Source: Rhypophila decipiens (lineage: Eukaryota; Ascomycota; Sordariomycetes; Sordariales; Naviculisporaceae). Taken from it: a DNA stretch of 64,000 nucleotides. Position 1 is the first letter of the stretch; every line of letters starts with the position of its first letter. This document shows, piece after piece, positions 21,052 to 41,367 of the stretch. The stretch is from NCBI GenBank assembly GCA_033297075.1, contig MU858214.1:21172-85171 (forward strand). Reading direction: 5' to 3'. The notes beneath the pieces are model-generated. The model was not told the origin of the DNA. It saw nothing but the letters and a program-made list of their open reading frames with translations, and made no database searches. A program made the position numbers and the translations under genes.

Positions 21052-22846
21052 ATGGCGTCGGCCGGCGAAAACAATGGCGTGGGGGGACAGGGCGAGGAGT
21101 CGACGACGGCACCGTCAAATGAGCTTCAGGTTCCAGGCCACGTTCCCATGGCCGACAGAATATCTCTGCAATCCTGGGGCACTGGAAGCGGACCTAGCCT
21201 TCCGGACATTGACAGCGAGGTCGGGGTAAGGAAGCGCATTCCGGTTGAGCTTTAAGCTGTCTACGACGCCAGAGATGAAGTACTAACTGGCCCTCCTATG
21301 CGCTTAAAGTATCTTTCCGATTCTGACTCAGATTTTCGAAGCAACAAGTGAGTCGAGCTCATTCGGCCCGCGTTGAGAGACCAACAGGAAGAGGTCGTGT
21401 GACTAATCTCAGGGCTCATGAAACTCAAGATTCTCGACCACGTCGGTACAGTCGAGCATATACCACTCTGTTGAAGAGCACGGGAGGACCTATCACAGAT
21501 TCAGGGAGGGAAGTAAGTCATTGACTCTCTACCGCCATGGTTGAAATTTCAGGCCTTGCAAGTGATCTGTGCTTCGCTGACTTGCCTCATATCAGAGTAC
21601 CCGCTTCCAAATGACCAGGTAAGAACTCCTTTTCGGCAGCGAAAGACCGAGTCAGCAGGAGCAAGTGTCTGATATCGACAACAGCAAGAGCAAGACAGAC
21701 TTGGTGAGTTCATGTTGTCCACAATCCAAGGGCTTGAGCTGATACGTGGGTTGGCAAGATCTTCAACATGCCATGTTCGTAATTACTACCCATGGCAAGC
21801 TGCATCTTGCCCCAATCGGGAACAATCCCAAGAACATCCTAGATATTGCCACAGGTATGTCCGCTTGGTACTGAGACCGGCCTTGAGCTTTTAATGACGT
21901 GGGATTATAGGAACGGGAGTCTGGGCCATTGAGATGGGTAAGAATAGATGCCAGCCATGAGATGCCTACATGACGATGCTTCTGGCCCCAGACTGATGCC
22001 CACTGATCATCGTCTCATAGCACAACTCTACCCCAACGCCGAAGTGACAGGGACGGACCTCAGCCCAATTCAACCAGAATAGTAAGGAAACCGAAAACAA
22101 AAATACAAACCTACGATTCCTTTCTGACGCATCCTTCCCAACCTCGTTTAGCATCCCGGCAAACTGCCAGTTCGAAATCGACGACGCAGAAGAAGAGTGG
22201 CTATTTTCCAAGAAATTCGACTACATCCACGGCCGCGCCCTGCTCTCCTGCTTCCGCGACCCTCTCTACGTGATCCAGCAAGCCTACGACTCTCTCGCGC
22301 CTGGCGGATGGCTCGAGTTCCAAGATGGGACCTTTCCGATGGAATACGTCGACGGCCCGCCTCCGGAAAATTGCGCAATCAAGAAGTGGAATGATTTGCT
22401 CATTGCCGGTGCTGAAAAGGCTGGTAGACCGTGGACGAATACGAAGCATTATAAACGCTGGTTTGAGGAAGTGGGCTTGGAGGAGGTCGTGCAGAGGGAG
22501 TTTTACTGGCCTATTACGCCTTGGGCTAAGGGGAAATATTACAAGACTCTTGGGGCGTTTTGTCAGGAGGATATGCTGAGGGGTGTGGAGGGTATGAGTT
22601 TGAAGGTTATTGGGCAGCTTGGATGGTCTGCCGAGAAGATTCGCGAGTTTATACCCGAGGTGCAGGCTGAGTTGCGGGATACCAAGGTTCATGTTTATAC
22701 CAAGATGTGAGTCTTTCTTTTTTCTCCTTTTCCTTTTTTTTCTTCGTACCTCTGATGGGGTATGCTTGTATAGAGAGTTGGTGTGCTAACTGTGACTTTT
22801 GGTTAGCCGGTTCGTATATGGCAGGAAGCCCTTGTCTGCAAAGTAA
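21052..22846 (+). CDS. LaeA-like SAM-dependent methyltransferase, ten exons
   Basis: Predicted 376 residues from exons 21052-21225, 21310-21347, 21413-21512, 21598-21618, 21685-21703, 21759-21854, 21911-21937, 22021-22081, 22152-22706 and 22807-22846. Phase is kept at all nine introns. The disordered acidic N-terminus (YLSDSDSDFRSN) precedes YPLPNDQQEQDRLDL, a hallmark of this family. The SAM-binding motif ILDIATGTGVWAIEM (about 143-157) has Ala where Gly is usual. TGTDLSPIQPEYIPANCQFE and the acidic DDAEEEW follow, and the end is RFVYGRKPLSAK. Relatives include LaeA-type regulators of secondary metabolism and velvet-complex-associated methyltransferases; substrate and role here are unknown. 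No biosynthetic cluster is adjacent. Confidence 0.9.
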
Positions 22847-25463: not shown

Positions 25464-26331
25464 ACACATCGCCCGACCTCCTTGGGCGTCATCATCGCGA
25501 CAGGCTCTTGGCTCTCAATACCTAGGCAGCTTGGCCCAAATGGCACTACAGTAGGAGATGATGAAAGTAGTCTCACTGGCTTGGATTCAGGGACCTGAAA
25601 TGGGTTGGGAGTTGTCATCTGTAGGAACTTTAGGATGAAATTCTGTCGATGTATGTTTTCGCATGTTTTCGCATGTCCTTGTCAAGTTGTTCACTTGACA
25701 TTTAATAATACTATTCGTCGCGTGCCCTGTGTGCTCGGGGTTTCTTTCGCTTTGGAACGGAAAACATCGTGATGTCGATATCCGGAAGGGCAGTACGCCT
25801 GTTTCTTGCTTCAACACTGAACCAGTACTGCCCAGCAACGTCGTGTTGATGATTATTCCCATGGTACATGTCTCTCCCCTCGTTCCTCAAGATGTTGCTC
25901 CTTGGAGAAAGTCAGCACCCCTGTACAAATGCTTATATTTCTGCAGCTTACCACATCGGGCACTGATGAGTAGGTGTGGTTGTACGGCGGCCGACCAGCG
26001 ATCTTGACAGTTGCCAGTCAAGTGGTTCCGCCAGTCCAGTGAGGCTGTGCCTGCATGGCGTCTCAGATCGTGCAGAGTTTCAAAGATTACTCCGTACCAC
26101 ACTGCCTGCATCTTTATTGGACATGTAGACAAGCCCGAGTCCGCCTTGGCGGTTCTAGACCACCCACTAGACGACAAAAACTTTCAGCTCTTGGCAGCAT
26201 AAAAGGAGGTGCAACTGCTGAATTCCTCTGGACTGGTGTGTTCGTATCTTTACACCTTCATTACTAGTACCAATCGTCCAAGGCCCTAGGCGTTTTGAAG
26301 ACGTATTAGACTATTGTGGTCAGTGTTGGCA
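25464..26331. other. Intergenic, no gene seen
   Basis: The 868 bases between the small secreted gene and the HET gene. A short duplication of GTTTTCGCAT occurs near 25656. Otherwise nothing was recognised. Confidence 0.45.
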
Positions 26332-28437
26332 ATGGCTTCTTGTAGCATACCTTCCAACTCCGGGCCGTATATGTATCCGGGCCCTGAGCTTCGGCACGCG
26401 AACGAAATCCGACTGATTCGTCTCCTCCCCGGGGCTGGTCCCATAGAATGCGAGTTCCTCGTCGTCGACATCACCACCCCACCCCCATTTGAAGCTCTCT
26501 CCTACACATGGGGCGACTCTCTCGACCGCCGCGAAATTCTCGTCCGAGCACCGCCGTCGACATCCCCAAGGACCACGTCGACGGCCGCTAGCATATCGGT
26601 CACCGCCAACTGCCTCGCAGCGCTTTATAGTCTGCGAACTACAGAGTCCCGCCAGCTCTGGATCGATGCCATTTGTATCGATCAAATCAACCTTGGCGAG
26701 CGACACCACCAGCTCAGCCTCATGGGGCGCATCTTCTCCTATGCCGCAAGGGTGCTCATCTTCCTAGGCGAGGCCGATGATGATAGTGATTTGGCCATGG
26801 AGTATATCCATGACCTTTACTCACCCGACACCAACTGGGCTCTCGATGAGTCCACGAGTAAAGGTCAGGTTTACAATGCGGTCAGGCGGTTGCTTGCGAG
26901 GCCGTGGTTCCGACGTGTGTGGGTCATCCAGGAAGTACTGATGGCACGGGAGGCGACCATTATATGTGGCACGAAAACGTTCCCATGGACGGCGATGAGG
27001 GAGGTGTGCGCCGTGGCGGCGAACCCTCCGGAGGGGATTTGGAGTGAGGAGGATCAACTATGCCTGCAGACGAAGGACATCCCTTTTGTGGCGCGGGCGA
27101 GGAAGGGGGACTTTTGGCCGAGGGTCGTGCAAGGAGAAGAAGAAGAAGAAGAAGAAGAAGTCGACGAAAGTCCACGTTTGCTTCCCTCCGACCCATTTGA
27201 CCGACAAATCGTCACGTTTGAGACGCTGTGTCGTTCCCGTGGATGTGAGGCGACCGACCCACGGGACAAAATATACGCCCTCCTCCCACTCCTTTCATCG
27301 CCCCGAAGCCCAGTGGCCATCGAGCCAAATTACGCTGACCCCGCCGCCAAGGTTTTTGTTGACTGCATGTCATACTTGCTCCCCTACTGGGGTCTACAGC
27401 TTCTCTGTGCTGTACAAAGCCCGCCAGTCACACCTGGACTTCCCTCCTGGGCTCCAGATTGGACCCTTGCCCCCCAGCGGTCTATCTTGGGTGGTGCCGG
27501 TGCGTCTCAAAAGGGGTCTCTTGGTCGGCGTGATCGGTGGAAGGATGTCCTCCCTCGGCTCTCCTCGGACCGCGATTCTTTTGGCTCTACAAGTTACCAG
27601 CGTGGATTATGGTCCGAACTAAAGGCGGCTTGGAAACGTACCCGTACTCGTAGTAAAGGTGTGCCCCAGCCTAGAGGTGGTATGTCGAGCCTCGGGACGA
27701 GGGTCTCTCGCCAGACCAATTTGCCCAAATCCTCTCGCTCGGAGGGTTACCAACATGAGCCGCGAATAGTAGTTCGAACCGAGACTTTGACGAGGACGAC
27801 AAGCTATGAACTTCACACACGAGGGATTTTCCTAGGAAATATTATCAACCTCACAAGTCCCTGCGACGTAGGACATCTCGAAGACTTTTGCCTGACGGAA
27901 TGGGTGGACATGTCCAAACGCCTGGTCCCAGGATTCGAGAGCACATCAGTCTATGACGCCATGGCGCCCAAGCTGTTCTATGATGTCGTGTTCGCCCAAG
28001 AAATAGGGGACGGATGGTATTACTATGTCGACAGGGCCATTCGTCATCTAATAGACCACGCTAAGCTAACCACCGAAGATGGGGCTGCAACAGCGGCTCA
28101 GAACAGCGCCGATGCATCGGGTTGGAGATTTGACAAGACCGACTTCAAGGCTTCGTTCGGGAACACGGCGCTGATGTGGGAGAGGTGTCACTCCCGAAGG
28201 CTTTTCGTCACGGATACAGGATATCTGGGTCTCGGTCCGCTCGAGGCAAGTCTCAGTGACGCCGTGTATGCTTGCCCTTCGGCAAACGTGCCTTTTGTGC
28301 TTCGAGCCACTGGAGGTGCTTCTAAACGGCTCCATCATCATCTCATTGGGGAATGCTTTCTCGAGGACAGAATGTGGGGTGATATCAAAGCGAAGAATGC
28401 TGGACCAGAGGATCTCGTGGAGTTGGTCCTCGTATAG
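26332..28437 (+). CDS. HET-domain (heterokaryon incompatibility) protein
   Basis: An intronless 701-residue protein; HET domains trigger cell death after fusion of genetically unlike hyphae. The ATG at 26332 is the first in frame. The HET domain runs from about residue 50 to 200: FEALSYTWGD (53-62), LWIDAICIDQ (109-118) and PWFRRVWVIQE (191-201). DPRDKIYALL (309-318) follows, as is usual in this subgroup. A run of glutamates near residues 269-276 is encoded by a GAA/GAG microsatellite. The C-terminal half has no NACHT, ankyrin or WD40 partner domain, so allelic-recognition specificity is unknown. Flanks are gene-poor. Confidence 0.92.
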   Translation: MASCSIPSNSGPYMYPGPELRHANEIRLIRLLPGAGPIECEFLVVDITTPPPFEALSYTWGDSLDRREILVRAPPSTSPRTTSTAASISVTANCLAALYSLRTTESRQLWIDAICIDQINLGERHHQLSLMGRIFSYAARVLIFLGEADDDSDLAMEYIHDLYSPDTNWALDESTSKGQVYNAVRRLLARPWFRRVWVIQEVLMAREATIICGTKTFPWTAMREVCAVAANPPEGIWSEEDQLCLQTKDIPFVARARKGDFWPRVVQGEEEEEEEEVDESPRLLPSDPFDRQIVTFETLCRSRGCEATDPRDKIYALLPLLSSPRSPVAIEPNYADPAAKVFVDCMSYLLPYWGLQLLCAVQSPPVTPGLPSWAPDWTLAPQRSILGGAGASQKGSLGRRDRWKDVLPRLSSDRDSFGSTSYQRGLWSELKAAWKRTRTRSKGVPQPRGGMSSLGTRVSRQTNLPKSSRSEGYQHEPRIVVRTETLTRTTSYELHTRGIFLGNIINLTSPCDVGHLEDFCLTEWVDMSKRLVPGFESTSVYDAMAPKLFYDVVFAQEIGDGWYYYVDRAIRHLIDHAKLTTEDGAATAAQNSADASGWRFDKTDFKASFGNTALMWERCHSRRLFVTDTGYLGLGPLEASLSDAVYACPSANVPFVLRATGGASKRLHHHLIGECFLEDRMWGDIKAKNAGPEDLVELVLV
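27134..27160. repeat. GAA trinucleotide repeat inside the HET gene
   Basis: About nine GAA-type codons in a row encode an acidic tract. It is likely length-polymorphic without breaking the frame. Confidence 0.8.
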
Positions 28438-32524: not shown

Positions 32525-35500
32525 CTAGAACATGGCCGCTTTAAGAAACATGCTGTCCAGGTGTTTCGGAAGCTTGTACTGTGCCGAACCTGAGTTATCA
32601 TTCTTGTCGGGCACCCCAGCCGTACTGCTGCTTCGGACAACAACATCGGCCACTGCTGCAATACTCGGCTGTTGAGCGGCAGAAGGAAGGGTATTTTCTG
32701 TTGACACTCCATAGATGATGCCACCTATAAGTTTCCACATCCTTGTTAGCCAAGTTGATGACGAAGATAACGGATTGCCGGTTATTGTGTTTGGACTTAC
32801 AAACAACTGCATTCGCGGCATCAAATCCCAGTGCTATAAAGATGATCGCCGCTGCCTGGGGGTCCTCGCCCAGAGCTCTGCCAAGGCAAGTAAACAAGGC
32901 TGAGAAGGATGTGAATATTGTGCTGGCGAGCGTCCTGACGTCGGTTGAGGTGGACCCCGACGGGATATATCCCCCGACACCGTACTGCAGTACGCTTCCC
33001 AGATCGGCAATGTAGCCTGGCCAGACCCATCAAGGGCGGTAAATAGGGACGAGGCGGAATAATTGGAGGAATGCTCCTGCCATTCGGACCCAATGCTGAA
33101 AGGGGGGGTAATGTTAGTTAAGAGTGACTCAAAATTGAACGCCGATGAAGAGTAAAGAAGAAAAAAGTGAAAGTAACAATGCTTACCTGCCAGACATCTT
33201 TCCAGTCGCCGTCTTGATATTTGATGCCTATAATAAAGTTGTAAAGGCAACAAAAGAGAACAAACACAGCTACCACGCCACGAAAGATTCGAAGCAATAT
33301 ATCAGAGGATGGAGGCGCCGCGGCTGGCGCTTTCTCAAACCGCCCTTCACCTCGTAGAAAGACATCCAGCTCGTTGTTGTCGGTAATTATCCGTCGGGCG
33401 CCTTGACCGGGAGTCGTTTGAACGTCTTTGCGGGGCCAGAAAGGTTAGCAATTTTTCCTCTTCCATGTGCTGGATGATGCTGTGCTGGGCTTACTGTCAG
33501 CGGCGATTGCATCGGAAAATATGCAATAGACATCGACGAGACCGCTGATTGCACCTGCCGTGGGGGAGAGCATGCTCAAAATTAGGTCAAACTAGGTAGA
33601 AGGATTAGCAAGAGAGGTCAGAACGAGTCCCACATTACGAATTACTTACAATTTGCAAATTGGACAAGGGTTTGGAGGTCGGCTGCGGCGGTGGATTGGT
33701 CGGATCCGGTGATGGTTTGTTTGGAGGCTGTGGTGGTGTGGTTGGATTCGGGGATGAATTGTTTGGAGGGCCCGCAGTCGACATCTGGAGATTAACGATC
33801 GAGGCCGTGTTTGCTGTGAAGGTCGGTTTGCTGGCCTCTTGGCCGGCTTTCGATCTTCTCCCTGGCGACGATTGCAGTTGTGAAGACGTTGGTCGAAGCC
33901 ACGACTTGACCTGTTCCCTCCGACGGGATCACCTTGGCCGGATCACCAAAACCCTCAGCATCAAAAGGCATCTTGCCATAGACAGTGCCGGCATACATGT
34001 TGAGTGCCCAGGAGGGAATGACGGTCATGGCGTTGAGAATCGTAAGAGGCGTATCGGGGCCCATGAAAGCATTCCAGATGGGTGAGATTATGGGTAGCTT
34101 GATGGGTGAGGTGATGACCTTCCACAGTTCAGTCATGATGTCAGGAATTGCCTTGAGTGCGTTGGCCAGGACGATCTTGATGGCGTCGAATAGGGTCCAG
34201 AACGTGTCACCCAGTAGCTGTGCAATCGCTTCAAATACGTTCGCTTTGCCATCAAACACGGCCGTGAACTTGTTCAGGACGTCCGTCAACAGTCTGGTGA
34301 TATTGTTTCCTTCCTCGTCCAGGGTATTCCCGATGGCGTTCATGATAACACCAATCAGCCCACTCAGATCGGGCAACTGGATCACGTCGCCAAGAATGTT
34401 GCTTGCTTGCGTCATGAGCCAGTTCATGGGATTGAACTTGCCAAGAAACTTCATTATTGGGTTGTCAAAAATGAAGCCGAGAAGCTTTGTGAACAGATTT
34501 GAATGGCCAGCGTCGGGCGGAGCAGGCCGCGCATCTGGAATCCACTGCGAAAGCTGGTCTTTGATGGTGTCGAATAGCTGGGCAATGATGGGCTGAAAAG
34601 CAGTGACGCTATAGCTGACAAAGTCAAAGCCTGCCTTGATGGTCTTGTTGACTGACTTTTGAGTCTCTAATACCTTGCCAATGTCGAAAACGAAGCCCAG
34701 CCAGTCGAGAAATCCGTTGATGTCAATGCCCAAGGCAGACTTGAGAAATCCCGCAAACGTCCGCAGCACAGACGCCGCAGTTCGTAGGACGAACCGAAAG
34801 ATTTTCCCTGCGATGGAGAGGAAAATGGAGATACCTTGGTCCAATACCTGCAGGGCAAACTTGATGCCGGTTCTGAGACCGGATTTGATGCATTCCCAGG
34901 CATCACCAAAGAAGTTGGCGACGTCGGTGGCGGCGTCCGAGATCCAGCTCCCATCGTCCTTGACGTATTCGCCGCTTTCAAGCTGCGTGAAGGACTCGAT
35001 AGCTGCGGGAGTGCTTTTGACGCGACTAACTGCTAGGTTCAGGGAACACGCCTCGGTGGATGTGTTGGTACTGCTCTTGGAGACATTGTCGTGCACGGCC
35101 TGGAACCGGCCCAGCAAACCAGCGGCGGCGTCAAAATTGTCAGTGTTTGGAAACTGAACTGGTCTGCCGTCGGTTGTCTTGGCAGCTTTCAGTGAGCCCG
35201 CAGTGGTGTATTTGGGTAGTTGTGTTAAGATGCGCTGAGCCGGGTCGACTGATATCGAGGTGCTGCCAAACTGTGTGAGACCAACCTCGTAGCTTGGAGC
35301 GGCGATCGAGTCACTGATTCTCTGGACGATGTTGATGGAACCCGCCGAGTCTGTCGTGATCTTGGTAGGTGTCGTATTGCTGAGCGTATAAGTGCCGTTG
35401 TTGACTGTCGCATACGCCCAGTCGCAGGAGAGTGTCTACAAGGAGCACGGCATATGTCAGCAGCAGCACAGAGAGACACACTAGACTGGGGGGAAAGGAG

Positions 35501-37013
35501 ACACTCATACAACAGGATAGTCCGGACCAACGGGAAGGCCTGTCGTCAAGTTGAATGGTTAGATAGATGTCACGTGCGCTGGATAGGTCAGGGTCTGTGG
35601 TTGCTTCGATGCTGGCCGAACGGGGATAATGCTTTCTTGCCAGATGGCAGATTCTGGCGTCAGATAGAGATGTCCCACAGTCGCATTGGTGTTGGTAACA
35701 TAAATAAGTTCGATAGACGCAGAGGAAAGGTTGTACTGGGTCGAAATTTCCAGGACGTCAGAGCGTATCGGCAAGCCTGAGGCCTCCCAAACGATGGTGG
35801 TAGAACCGGACTTGGTCCTGGTGCCTCTGATGTAATACAGGTCATTGGAGGCTGAGACAGCCAACACAACGAGTGTAGTGCCTTTTTGTGAAGCAACGAC
35901 TTGCTTAAAAGCAATCGAAGGCAGGATGACTTGGGGCACCTGGTCTGGCCTGCTCGATGGGATGAAGGCGATACCCCGGTCAGAAGCAACAAACAAATCC
36001 GTAAACCCGCTTGGGGCAGGACAAGAAAAGAGGTTGTGTACAGTGCCTAGCGAGTCGAATCAAGCTGGGCAGTAAGAGAGTTGTCCGTGTTTGAGAAGCA
36101 ACCACCAACAGTCTCATTGGCCATCTTGAACAGGGTGGATGTTCCTGCGAAGAAGCCAGGGAGATTGCCTGGCAAAACTTGCAGAATGGACTGGTACACC
36201 TGAGGAGGAGGGACTGGGACCGGGTCGGCATTCGAGTCATCTTGAGCTGGAATGGTATAATTGTCCGAAAGCAGGCCACCGATAGCCTTAGTACCGAGAG
36301 CGATGAGACTTTGGCCATCAGGTTTGAACCCTCCACAGCTGAGAGCAGTGATATTCAAGGTACCGCTGGTTGTTTTGTTGGAGCGAGCTACCCATTCGAT
36401 TGCTGAATGATTGGTTCTGTTAGCATTTCAATTGGACTGAGGAGTAATTACATCTAAGACGGTGAAGAGCACTTGCCTGCTGGATCGAAGGCCTCAAGAC
36501 TCACGACTGCTGTGTATAGCGTCTGAGACTGGTTTGCATCCGTCGACACAGCAGCAAGAACGACGGTATTGGTGGTGGCAGTGATGGATTGAGTGACATC
36601 GTAAACGAGAACAGAATTTCCAGCACTGGAGACAGGGCTGATCATGGAGCTTTGCCAGACTTCGGCACCGCCCTCGATGTGACGGACACAATAGAGCTGC
36701 TATACAAGTCAATTCAGTCATCAGTAACTCATCCAAGATTCTAAACTGCATGGGTGACAAGGACTTACATGATCATTCCCAATGGAAAAAATCATGGGCT
36801 GGCCATCACATCTTGGACGAGGGCAAGCTGCAAAGCCCCGCCAAACGCAGTGACTGGGGCAGTATGAGACGTGAATTCGGAACAGACTTTGAGTCCAATC
36901 TTGGCGTCAGGACTTGGCTCAACCTTGAAGGTGCCGTCATCCTGGAGCCTAGAAACAGGAGCAGGCACTGATGTTTCGATCGTCAATACGGGGGTAAGTT
37001 GAGGATTTGCCAT
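32525..37013 (-). pseudogene. Large propeller-like, membrane-anchored protein gene, disrupted
   Basis: Eight exons: 37013-36769, 36699-36477, 36402-35511, 35435-33650, 33591-33495, 33425-33187, 33095-32801 and 32724-32525, about 1320 codons. The N-terminal half has repeated strand-like units (PMIFSIGND, DLFVASDRGIAFI, NDLYYIRG, IVWEASGL) suggesting a beta-propeller. The middle (about 35000-33900) is amphipathic-helix-rich, then comes a Pro/Asn-rich linker. Exon 6 encodes one membrane helix (about 33224-33303). I do not recognise the whole family. Lesions: frame changes near 36798, 36057 and 33855, in-frame TAA at 35559-35561 and in-frame TGA at 33030-33032. Outside these, phases agree at every splice site. 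The 36403-36476 intron has a GC donor (GCAAGT). Divergent from the P47-like gene. Confidence 0.65.
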
Positions 37014-37883
37014 GGCGACAGCTTTCGGGGCTTCCTTTGGGGAGACTATGGCTTAGAAACAGGAAATGGAGTTTCGAAAGAAAATTGGGCGGGTTGTGGA
37101 CGAATACAACAGATGAAGCAAATGGTTACTTGTACGTATCTCAAATACAAACCCATGTGAAGGATATGGAGCCGCTCTCACGGAGCATATGGTCCGGCAA
37201 GATGAGTAGCGTGAGTCGAGACCGTGACCGGGAAAGCACGCTGGAGTCTGGACAAAAGCTGAATCCTGACGACCTGCATACCGCGATGCATTACATTAGA
37301 ATTTCCACAGTGATTAGAGCCAATATATTGCTTCCAGCTGCATTGGCACTCTTGGTAGTCAGTATGCGATTGGCTCTGATAAATATCGAAGAATCACTAA
37401 TTTCTAAACCAAGAAGTCCAGACGTTAAAGTCTAACTGCGGCCATGCCATCCAGTGCATCCCAACCATCGCCAAGGAGTCAATAGTATCCCCGTTGTATT
37501 TTCCTGCAGCTTAGTCACAAATATTGAGCATGAGCTGATCTATCTCGGTCTAGCCCCCGTGGTTGTGCCAGCTGAATGCTGCAGGTAATTACCGGTACCT
37601 AGGTAAGGAAACCCCCGCATCGCTACAATCCATTAGTCGAATTCAGCTTGCGACTTGCGTTGAACAAATCACTATGGCGAGAAATTCATGAATCATGGGA
37701 AACAATGTGGGTCATAATAACAGACAATGGGGAAGGAAAAGGAGAGAGAATCCCAAGATTCATAATGCTGGGGGCATTTCACACAGCCTTGGTCATTTTG
37801 CGACGTCTTGACACTCATTCAACCACTTCCTACGAGATCAAGTGCAAGGTCATCTTGCAGTCCAAACTCGGTAATCAACAAAG
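37014..37883. promoter_or_regulatory. Shared divergent promoter region
   Basis: The 870 bases between the start codons of the large propeller-like gene and the P47-like gene are the only sequence available to drive both. Co-regulation is therefore plausible but inferred. No specific binding site was identified. Confidence 0.4.
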
Positions 37884-40040
37884 ATGGGCAATGCGACGCC
37901 CGGTACGCTGGCGGAATTCGACTTGGTCCTTTCCGTCACCGAAGCCTCACTCAATGCTCAGTTCATGCGCCTGTTTCTCACTCCTCTTGATGATGATGAT
38001 AGCAAGTTCCTCATCAGCCATTCGATGGTTTTGAAAACCAGCCCAAACTCTAAAGCCGGTATTTTTGGCTCAATTGAATGCCCACAAGTTCACATGGATC
38101 TACCTGACGTTCCCACAAACGCACGGGTTGTGAGGTTGGCGTTCAAATTCCTGACCAACACGCCGGGTTCAACTGGGGATCCAAAAAAGGGCATCCCTTC
38201 TTATGGTGATCAATTTACTCCTTGCCCAGACAGTTTGTGATGTGACTGACAGTGATGCTACAGATCCGACATATGACAGCGTCTTCAAGTGGTGGGACGA
38301 GAGCAAAGGAGACCCCGAATTACAAGAGCAAACTATCAATGGATGGACTTTCAGCTTTGAGTGCTCGCTCGGCCAAGCTAACATTCAACAAATCGAAGAG
38401 CGTAAGTCCGATTCAAAATTGTGGTTGCTTGACTCAGGAATAACTCATTAATAACCTCGACAGAGTATCTCCATCCGTCTACGGCTGATCGACTTCAAAG
38501 CGCAATCGACAACAAGTCGTTTCAGCCAGCTTCTCTATTCTGCCTCTTCGAAACGGGCCAGCTCGCCAGAAGCTTCCAGATGGCAGATGCCACTGGTAAG
38601 GCTATAACAGACGACGAGGCACTTTCCAAATTCAAAATTGGGCTCACGACTCGATTCGCTCCGCCAAGACCAGGTACAGGCACAGGTGTTGCAACTCCAG
38701 GGAACGGGCTCCCAACTCCAGAGAATCCATTCGTGCTCGGCTACGGTGTCAGCCAAGTCGATCCCAAACCGCTCCCGCAGACTCCCCAATTCGATCCTCA
38801 GAATTTTCAGTTCAGCGTAACTCATCAGCCCAATGGCTGCAGCACAATCAACTTCCTGATGCTGTTGGGTCCCATCACGAAGCTCATCGATGTGACCCAA
38901 AACCTCAACGCCGGCATCTTCACAACCCCGTTCCTCGCGGCCATCGGCGCCGACGCACCTGGACCCACCGGTCGCCCGCAGTATGACGGCACCCTGGTCA
39001 TCTCAGCAAAGTCTTTCAAAGAGCAGTACATCGCCAAGCAGCTTCAAGATTTCTTTGCCATGCCCAATCCAACCTTTCCAAACGTCGCTGTCCACAACGA
39101 TTCTACTAATGTCAATTGGAAGTCCCTCAACAGCTACAATACTACGGCCGCCTGGCATTCTGATCAGTATGGTCAAAGCGATGATGACGTTCTTTCGTAC
39201 AACGGAACCTGGACCAACGATGTCGCCATCACCAGCAACTACGCCAACCAGCAGATGCCAGTCGACGCTGCTCGAAATCTGACCATCAAGGTATCCGCCC
39301 AAGCATGGGTAAAGTATCTCGAAACGGTCACTGCCAGTAAGTTTTCACTTTATTTCTTCTGCCCTGCCCTAGTAAAGGAACACGTTCTAATTTCGGATTC
39401 ATCACAGGTTGAAAGCACATCGACCCTTACAGCGGAACCCTCTCCGCCGAGACGACTATTCAGCCCATCAACTTGGAGTACAACGTCACCACCAGCTCCC
39501 TCGGTGCTTGGACCTTTACCCAAAAGACCGAGGCCGCAAAACTTCCACCCATGCAGGATGACCCCAGCCACCCTGGTCAGAAGCAACTGAAGTTGAAGGG
39601 GCAAAACGAGAAGGGTGACGCACTCGAGGTCAAGACGAACATCACCGGGTCGTTTTTCAACAGGGGAACTTTTAATTGGCAGTACGTTTAACACCCGAGT
39701 TTCATTCATACATGACACAGATTGGAACTTGCGGGTGCTGATGACTGACACAGGGCTTTGATGAATCAAATAACCGACGGACTCACTCCCGTCGCACGGT
39801 CCATCTGGGCCATGTATAACGCTTACTTGTCAACCTCGTTGAGCTCAATCAACACCCAAATCGTCATGCCGGTATGTCCCTCCCCTTGTTTGAATTGCTA
39901 AGATCCTGATACTTACTCATGACAATGAATAAACACAGGCCGGCAACGTCTTCACTTTCAATGGGCTAAGTCTGGACAAGGATAATAATCTCTATACGCT
40001 CATGAAGCACCAGACCCAATCGGGCAGAGAACATATTTAG
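37884..40040 (+). CDS. P47-like (TULIP superfamily) protein, with an in-frame stop
   Basis: Six exons: 37884-38205, 38264-38401, 38464-39336, 39408-39681, 39754-39871 and 39939-40040, about 608 codons. Phase agrees at every junction. Resemblances to the clostridial P47/bacterial P47-like family are the opening FDLVLSVTEASLNAQF, the strand NGWTFSFECSLG, GTLVISAKSFKEQYI in the middle and NVFTFNGLSLDKDNNLY near the end. P47 is a TULIP-fold protein of bacterial toxin gene clusters; the role of fungal homologues is unknown, and this call rests on pattern recognition. Exon 4 begins GT|TGA, an in-frame stop at 39410-39412. A weak donor at 39311 with an AAAG acceptor at 39416 would avoid it. It may be a pseudogene or unusually spliced. 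Confidence 0.55.
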
Positions 40041-40229: not shown

Positions 40230-41367
40230 TTAGCGCATGTCCCCACGCATGTCAGACCCCGGTAGAGCCTTCAACCAGCTGTCCAAATCTTCCTTGACTC
40301 TTCTCTTGACAGTACACCTGTTTGTATCGGCAATGGACTGCAGCTTCAATGTAGGACAGTTGACCTTGTCGTTGATTAAGTCGCTGTTGCATTTGGCGTT
40401 CATGGCGCGTTGGAGTGCATCGCCCTTCCTATAAAGAGAAGCACTTGGTCAGCCTAGTTCAAAGCACATAACCAAGGTTACAAGTCAGACTTACCACCCA
40501 AAGACATAATCGCCGTGGTTTCCATAGCCAGTGTTGTCGCCAAAGGACCACACAAAAGGCTGTGACCCGTCAGCAGGCCAGTCAGCCTTGTTGTTGAAAG
40601 GCCGAGTATCCCAGTACGTCTCGTAGAACACTTCAGGTATCGCAACCGGATGGGTCGAAGGACACTTTCTGCTGACTGGGTAGGCAACATGGCTCTGATG
40701 ATCCGGACTGTCCGTGTGTTTACCATTCCAGCACGTCGGGAAGCGAACGGTGACCATGATCCCGCCTTTGCAGGGGGTAGTCGGGAAGTCATATCGGTAT
40801 CCCGACCGTGTCATGGGGCTGTCAAGACAAGTAAATTGCAGCGCAGGATTCTTGCGAGCCTCGGCTTGCGTCTTGTAAGACGGATTGCCAACCGTCATGC
40901 GGAAACCTGGTATAAAGGCTATGACCTTGCCATTCGACAGATAGTAGACTGTCTGACCACCGTTGGAAGCGGTGTATCCCAGCCCGTTGCCTACCGTGCT
41001 GACGCGCTTATATGTCCCGTTGCGGGCCTTGTAGAAGAGAACGGCGGTCCAGTAGTTGGAAAAGTCTTCCATCGGTTGGCAGCTGGTGCAGGTCGCCGTG
41101 GTGGCTTGGTCGTGGGCCTCGTGGTCCATCGTGACGTTGAAGGCATTTCCTCCGACGATCTGGTGGAGATGGGGGGTTGGGTTCTGACCTGGGTTGACGA
41201 TTCTGCGATAAAGGTGTCAGCGGGGAATGAGGATGGCTTTGGTGGGGAGGTACGTACGGATCGAGGCGGTCGACGGCGAGCTGAGCGCATGAGAAGCGTA
41301 GGGTAGTCGAGATAACGCCGGCGGGCGCCAAGGCTACCGCAGCCAGAAATGAAGAAAGCCAGCGCAT
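40230..41367 (-). CDS. Secreted DUF1996 protein
   Basis: Predicted 338 residues from exons 41367-41258, 41202-40495 and 40428-40230; introns of 55 and 66 bases. Residues 1-20 form a signal peptide. The DUF1996 domain follows: CAQLAVDRLDPIVNPGQ (first splice inside), TPHLHQIVGGNAFN, TCTSCQPMEDFSNYW and FPTCWNGKHTDSPDH, with [20 protein letters not shown] near the end. These conserved Cys, His and Asn residues define the family, found in secreted or wall proteins of many fungi; its activity is unknown. No GPI or carbohydrate-binding module is appended. Its 3' end faces the P47-like gene 189 bases away. Confidence 0.92.

Follow-up and report, generated by a model that had tools for sequence, protein, structure and literature searches.

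Two genes that face away from each other in the genome of the fungus Rhypophila decipiens raise the question of whether they form a functional unit and, if so, of what kind. The DNA analyzed (64,000 nucleotides, positions 21,172 to 85,171 of contig MU858214.1; hereafter the window) had been described in an earlier note, from the letters alone, as carrying a P47-like TULIP gene beside a large propeller-like, membrane-anchored gene, possibly a fungal two-component secreted or membrane system acquired or kept as a unit. On the evidence presented here, we consider it rather probable that the window holds a decaying version of a two-gene unit that occurs in a fungus and in bacteria and is made up of a P47/OrfX-type double-TULIP protein and a large modular membrane-associated protein, with a likely defensive role.

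Organization of the gene pair

Both genes are multi-exon, lie on opposite strands and diverge across 870 bases (37014-37883) between their start codons, as originally described. They are publicly annotated as QBC37DRAFT_486307 and QBC37DRAFT_486306 of R. decipiens, where their contig is 85171 bases long. According to PMC12734299, the sequenced R. decipiens strain PSN293 was isolated from donkey dung, and we infer that the QBC37DRAFT record represents this strain. Our model gives six exons for the plus-strand P47-like gene (37884-40040) and approximately eight for the minus-strand partner gene (37013-32525), arranged as follows.

37014..37883, no strand: region between both start codons, 870 bases
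37884..38205, plus: P47-like exon 1; start codon at 37884; matched by P0001 and P0004
38264..38401, plus: P47-like exon 2; reading consistent with P0004; the deposited protein omits part of this stretch
38464..39336, plus: P47-like exon 3; contains the near-invariant NPFVLGYG motif
39408..39681, plus: P47-like exon 4; in-frame TGA 39410-39412 at the exon start; the deposited model has another intron
39754..39871, plus: P47-like exon 5; gene model
39939..40040, plus: P47-like exon 6; C-terminal signature and stop codon
36062..37013, minus: partner N-terminal part; exons approximately 36769-37013, 36477-36699 and 36062-36402; frame break at approximately 36777-36810, where no intron fits
35511..36059, minus: partner, propeller-like region continued without intron; frame break at 36059; in-frame stop 35559-35561
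33650..35435, minus: partner conserved core, a beta-rich linker and then amphipathic helices; frame change at approximately 33862-33919
32525..33591, minus: partner C-terminal exons with hydrophobic segments; approximately 33495-33591, 33187-33425, 32801-33095 and 32525-32724; TGA 33030-33032 where the deposited model skips

A DUF1996 gene (40494-41216, minus strand) adjoins the P47-like gene, and a heterokaryon incompatibility (HET) gene (26299-28434, plus strand) lies near the pair. RIP indices of the pair were no different from those of other window parts, and no known toxin family was found in the 20 window ORFs scanned for them.

Fold and family of the P47-like protein

For a member of the fungal family, fold comparison of the predicted structure showed the entire chain to be covered by two TULIP domains arranged as in P47/OrfX, so that the TULIP fold suggested from the letters was indeed found. 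This comparison supports the modeled assignment of the plus-strand product as a P47/OrfX-type double-TULIP protein. A first AlphaFold model, built from 7 alignment rows, had a pLDDT of 46 and gave LBP, CETP and BPIFA1 as top Foldseek matches, none at E <=0.001 and with P47 at rank 35; it was replaced by a 16-row model. In the model, the NPFVLGYG motif (encoded within 38464-39336) sits in a low-confidence loop of the N-terminal half, residues 269-289.

Of the P47-like motifs reported earlier, those at the ends of the gene proved genuine by both alignment and fold comparison; the Pfam search proposed to confirm them failed, PF06597 (Clostridium_P47) being absent from the matches of all 17 fungal members (E up to 10, HMMER filters on). 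The same model matched nothing in the window's own genome, with Bacteroides ihuae, one of 14 control genomes, positive, and nothing in the two bacterial TULIP genes described below (Stanieria and Methylocystis). PDB chains of P47 and OrfX gave no phmmer or profile match at E up to 10, a kind of search that remote relatives are expected to escape, and BFVD gave nothing at E 0.001 or better. Pieces of the two window genes reached no curated cut-off in Pfam or NCBIfam. The earlier suggestion of secretion found no support, as a simple hydropathy scan of P0001, P0009 and P0010 detected no N-terminal hydrophobic segment.

The distribution of the P47-like family is patchy. A 16-member tree requires two changes for its four ascomycete rows and two for its three basidiomycete rows. 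Paralogy or transfer could account for this, but the branches are long and the forks close to the root too weak for any claim. The Crucibulum laeve protein (P0019) carries a long additional C-terminal part, from approximately residue 445 to its end.

Recurrence of the pair in bacteria

A tblastn search of 72,556 plasmids with the Ceratobasidium P47-like protein gave a single match at E up to 1, in Stanieria sp. NIES-3757 (E 5e-5), where a 471-aa TULIP gene is followed, after 38 bases and on the same strand, by a 1197-aa partner gene. The 1197-aa protein and its Rhypophila counterpart align over 572 columns at 22% (E 3e-12), with a second match in the helical part (E 0.002). With the 1197-aa protein as query, matches came from Methylocystis sp. 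MJC1 (E 9e-31), Kovacikia (5e-5) and Undibacterium (3e-4), and the Kovacikia protein in turn led to another Kovacikia replicon (1e-158) and to Variovorax (2e-4), the last perhaps matching through its laminin-G part alone. The Methylocystis partner is preceded, 79 bases away, by a 534-aa gene in tandem.

All ORFs of 80 residues or more from the six bacterial loci (388 in total) were then screened with the fungal-only profile A5, and exactly two reached E 1 or better: the gene immediately before the partner in Methylocystis (1.2e-8) and the one in the same place in Stanieria (2.6e-15). Because the Methylocystis locus was found via the partner alone, its adjacency is independent evidence; the Stanieria locus was found via the TULIP gene, and kinship of the partner was tested there separately. 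Among the 388 ORFs the Rhypophila partner matched the Stanieria partner only (E 3e-11), and a pairwise comparison with the Methylocystis partner gave E 2e-6. By hhalign, fungal and bacterial TULIP genes matched at 97.9% and 95.7% probability (20 shuffles each reaching at most 0.2% and 1.3%), and a two-row bacterial TULIP profile matched the window gene only at E 0.0039. Both window genes are thus homologous to the members of a bacterial pair.

No TULIP gene could be recognized in the fetched DNA of Undibacterium, both Kovacikia loci and Variovorax, four of the five loci found via the partner alone. Of the five bacterial partner loci that are annotated, all but Methylocystis have transposases nearby. 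One Kovacikia partner has, further upstream and on the far side of a transposase gene, a gene whose product carries Tectonin and Hemopexin domains (L021 3440-5770). Further searches yielded no additional relatives: tblastn of the Rhypophila partner (P0010) against plasmids gave none, each bacterial TULIP protein matched only itself on plasmids, the Stanieria partner (P0021) had no match in phage records, and none was found in genomic contigs (scanned with P0009 and A6 only) or viral contigs (P0010, A6, P0021, P0023 and P0022). The plasmid finds carry no information on plasmid preference, nor can the direction of any transfer between fungi and bacteria be told.

Further copies in Rhypophila

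In a second genome labeled R. decipiens, the orthologues V8F06_013104 and V8F06_013103 have consecutive locus tags and share a contig of 41007 bases. Strain CBS 256.69, sequenced by JGI, is assigned to R. myriaspora in PMC12734299.

The window's own genome was searched with the bacterial proteins. The Stanieria partner matched two other contigs, C273 and C349 (E 5e-18 and 6e-17), the window copy being weaker (4e-6); the Methylocystis partner found C273 and C349 and not the window copy, and the Stanieria TULIP protein had no match. On both contigs, an ORF with a P47-like start and end lies directly upstream of the partner on the same strand. Profile A9, which includes two bacterial rows, ranked these upstream ORFs best among 271 ORFs (4.5e-5, 5.8e-4 and 6.2e-3; next 0.39), with matches covering profile positions 13-34 and 543-605 in the correct order. 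With the fungal-only profile A5, the same C349 ORFs reached just 0.14-0.16 and none on C273 was matched; profile-profile comparison (hhalign) of the C273 protein gave a probability of 12.5%, 30 shuffles reaching at most 1.2%. Judged from sequence, C273 and C349 probably carry additional P47-like/partner pairs, the P47 identity resting on the ends.

The two P47-like copies are identical at 416 of 575 positions. On C273 the ORF stays open through 581 residues and stops 50-odd bases short of the first methionine of its partner, a gene that is itself split over several frames; the C349 copy has two in-frame stops and then an in-frame run into the partner (L029 2850-4650), which may reflect a fusion or a lost stop. 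Beside the C349 pair, an ORF (L029 7934-10000, minus strand) resembles a HET protein in its motif, a HET gene also being near the window pair.

The pair recurs outside the window, in the second Rhypophila genome, in Stanieria and Methylocystis and, probably, in the two weaker own-genome cases, so that the second genome with adjacent genes asked for in the earlier note does exist. The expectation of a head-to-head arrangement elsewhere was not borne out, the order being tandem wherever it could be read. Recurrent adjacency agrees with a pair kept as a unit, as had been suggested, but describing that unit as fungal was too narrow, since bacteria also carry it.

Probable decay of the window copy

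When the V8F06 orthologue was mapped on the window, the partner gene was seen to shift frame twice without room for an intron (36777-36810 and 36059; the matched pieces overlap or abut) and to contain an in-frame stop (35559-35561). Two more possible lesions lie at 33862-33919 and at a TGA (33030-33032), where the comparison is weaker. Splice phases of the P47-like gene are consistent except for an in-frame TGA (39410-39412) just after the third intron of our model; the consistent phases claimed for both genes thus held for this one, with that exception, and failed for the partner. The deposited model of the P47-like gene sidesteps the TGA through a different intron, and the V8F06 and Colletotrichum tamarilloi proteins read through at this site.

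The V8F06 proteins differ in other ways. Two stretches of the P47-like protein resemble another frame of the window gene, and the partner model is shorter, has one rewritten stretch and lacks C-terminal segments; the two Rhypophila partner models are 93% identical over the aligned part. Long ORFs neighboring the window pair are uninterrupted (a 1531-aa SNF2 ORF and a 712-aa HET ORF). Because of the breaks and stops in the window, the different defects of the V8F06 proteins and the open neighboring ORFs, the pair is probably decaying in both Rhypophila genomes, separately; errors in the V8F06 gene models are possible, the comparison there being one of predicted proteins.

The partner protein

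A profile of four bacterial partners had a sole match at E up to 1 among 671 window ORFs (33795-35435, E 1.5e-17). Alignment of these four with the two Rhypophila proteins placed the shared core after a lectin-like N-terminal half; in the bacterial partners (1072-1197 residues) the lectin-like part is the N-terminal half only. The N-terminal part of the window gene (36062-37013) has its homologue in the beginning of the Stanieria protein. The latter matched propeller lectin models weakly (E 1e-6 and 1e-5), far under the curated cut-offs (28.1 bits for the NCBIfam beta-propeller lectin match at E 1e-6, cut-off 200), and the Rhypophila partner (P0010) reached E 0.037. Laminin G was found in the N-terminal half of the Undibacterium and Variovorax partners. 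Taken together, domain matches suggest that the N-terminal half is lectin-like but variable, resembling a propeller in Stanieria and Rhypophila and laminin G in Undibacterium.

Three regions had been proposed for the partner: strand repeats, amphipathic helices and a single membrane helix. Amphipathic windows were present in the core (computed without a null), and the membrane helix was roughly confirmed, as the C-terminal part of the deposited protein holds two hydrophobic 19-residue segments; hydrophobic segments towards the C terminus are seen in the partner proteins including the bacterial ones. Strand repeats were not evident in Rhypophila, where self-similarity of P0010 residues 1-420 was no higher than in shuffles (64 of 300 as high), support coming instead from Stanieria; for the helical region compared with itself, 6 of 300 shuffles were as high. 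No toxin or enzyme domain was recognized in domain scans of the pair genes, and PDB sequence searches with the partner gave nothing credible. Among the matches listed, where relatives had to share 5-residue words, no fungal homologue of the partner occurred outside Rhypophila.

Alternative explanations and proposed function

Were the frame breaks and stops merely assembly errors, both genes would be intact and active. Their annotation as proteins in both genomes and the close identity of the two partner models speak for this, but we regard it as improbable given that the long SNF2 and HET ORFs nearby are open, that the lesions of both predicted proteins differ in the other Rhypophila genome and that two in-frame stops also interrupt the P47-like copy on C349. 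Far less probable still is that the genes are unrelated and neighbors by chance. The orientation does change, from divergent in the window to tandem elsewhere, and four of the six bacterial partner loci have no recognizable TULIP gene; against this stand five adjacency sites (the window with its V8F06 orthologues, C349, C273, Stanieria and Methylocystis), of which at most four are independent because C349 and C273 are close paralogues, one of those four resting on weak end matches.

Housekeeping lipid handling, in which the TULIP protein would shuttle lipid within the cell, bringing it to a membrane-anchored partner or taking it away, and nothing offensive would be involved, seems unlikely, if less so than either of these. 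TULIP proteins are chiefly described as lipid carriers (PMC6791001), and the hydrophobic segments of the partner, the lack of any recognized toxin family and the Rhypophila products without an N-terminal hydrophobic segment would accord with such a role. A patchy distribution, in contrast, better suits an accessory, surface-directed system, and the damage in two Rhypophila genomes, the transposases beside most annotated bacterial partner loci and the lectin-like parts of the partner also argue against housekeeping.

The pair looks, rather, like an undescribed system common to a fungus and bacteria. The N-terminal half of the partner would recognize a surface glycan or lipid head group, and its amphipathic and hydrophobic segments would insert into the recognized membrane; the TULIP protein might bind lipid or mask a hydrophobic part of the partner, aiding its assembly, the two products presumably touching each other. 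More tentatively, then, bacteria and fungi could share a two-component membrane-active system, present three times in one fungus, whose P47/OrfX-type double-TULIP helper would deliver or assemble an amphipathic membrane protein guided by its lectin part. Defense against grazers or competitors appears the likeliest role; this role is modeled on bacteria in which orfX-p47 clusters neighbor genes for insecticidal toxins, and it is an analogy because no toxin or enzyme domain was recognized.

Relation to known P47/OrfX systems

OrfX and P47 proteins make botulinum complexes more toxic when taken orally, with OrfX2 binding NTNH (PMC13030710), orfX-p47 clusters adjoin insecticidal toxin genes, and related clusters are spread across many bacteria, their general role being open (PMC7020563). 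Fungal homologues of P47 are stated to be in Pfam (PMC6791001). In the open-licence literature of PubMed Central, no paper was found linking P47/OrfX to propellers, or OrfX/TULIP or Clostridium P-47 to fungal genomes. Present in environmental bacteria and a dung fungus, and with a partner gene that does not belong to the toxin world, the pair offers a system for asking what a P47-type TULIP protein does, be it binding lipid, binding its partner or placing that partner in a membrane. If the proposal is correct, the P47/OrfX helpers of botulinum clusters are part of a broader class of lipid-protein delivery pairs that is independent of toxins.

The fungal protein has the double-TULIP order in common with Clostridium P47, OrfX2 and OrfX3 (PF06597 superfamily) but differs in having no PF06597 match and in length, intact fungal members comprising approximately 640-720 residues and the matched P47 and OrfX1-OrfX3 chains 409-487. 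Its fold match to BPI, LBP and CETP, which are secreted animal proteins, is clearly weaker than that to P47/OrfX. In place of a named toxin or NTNH, as in orfX-p47 clusters, the partner here is a lectin-like, helical membrane protein, and no orfX1 was seen. With respect to beta-propeller lectins and tectonins (NF052348, NF052350, PF19193), the weak propeller-lectin match belongs to the Stanieria partner and is well below cut-offs. The closest parallel to a P47 protein acting with a lectin module is the fusion of P47 to carbohydrate-binding domains in some bacteria, as described in PMC7020563.
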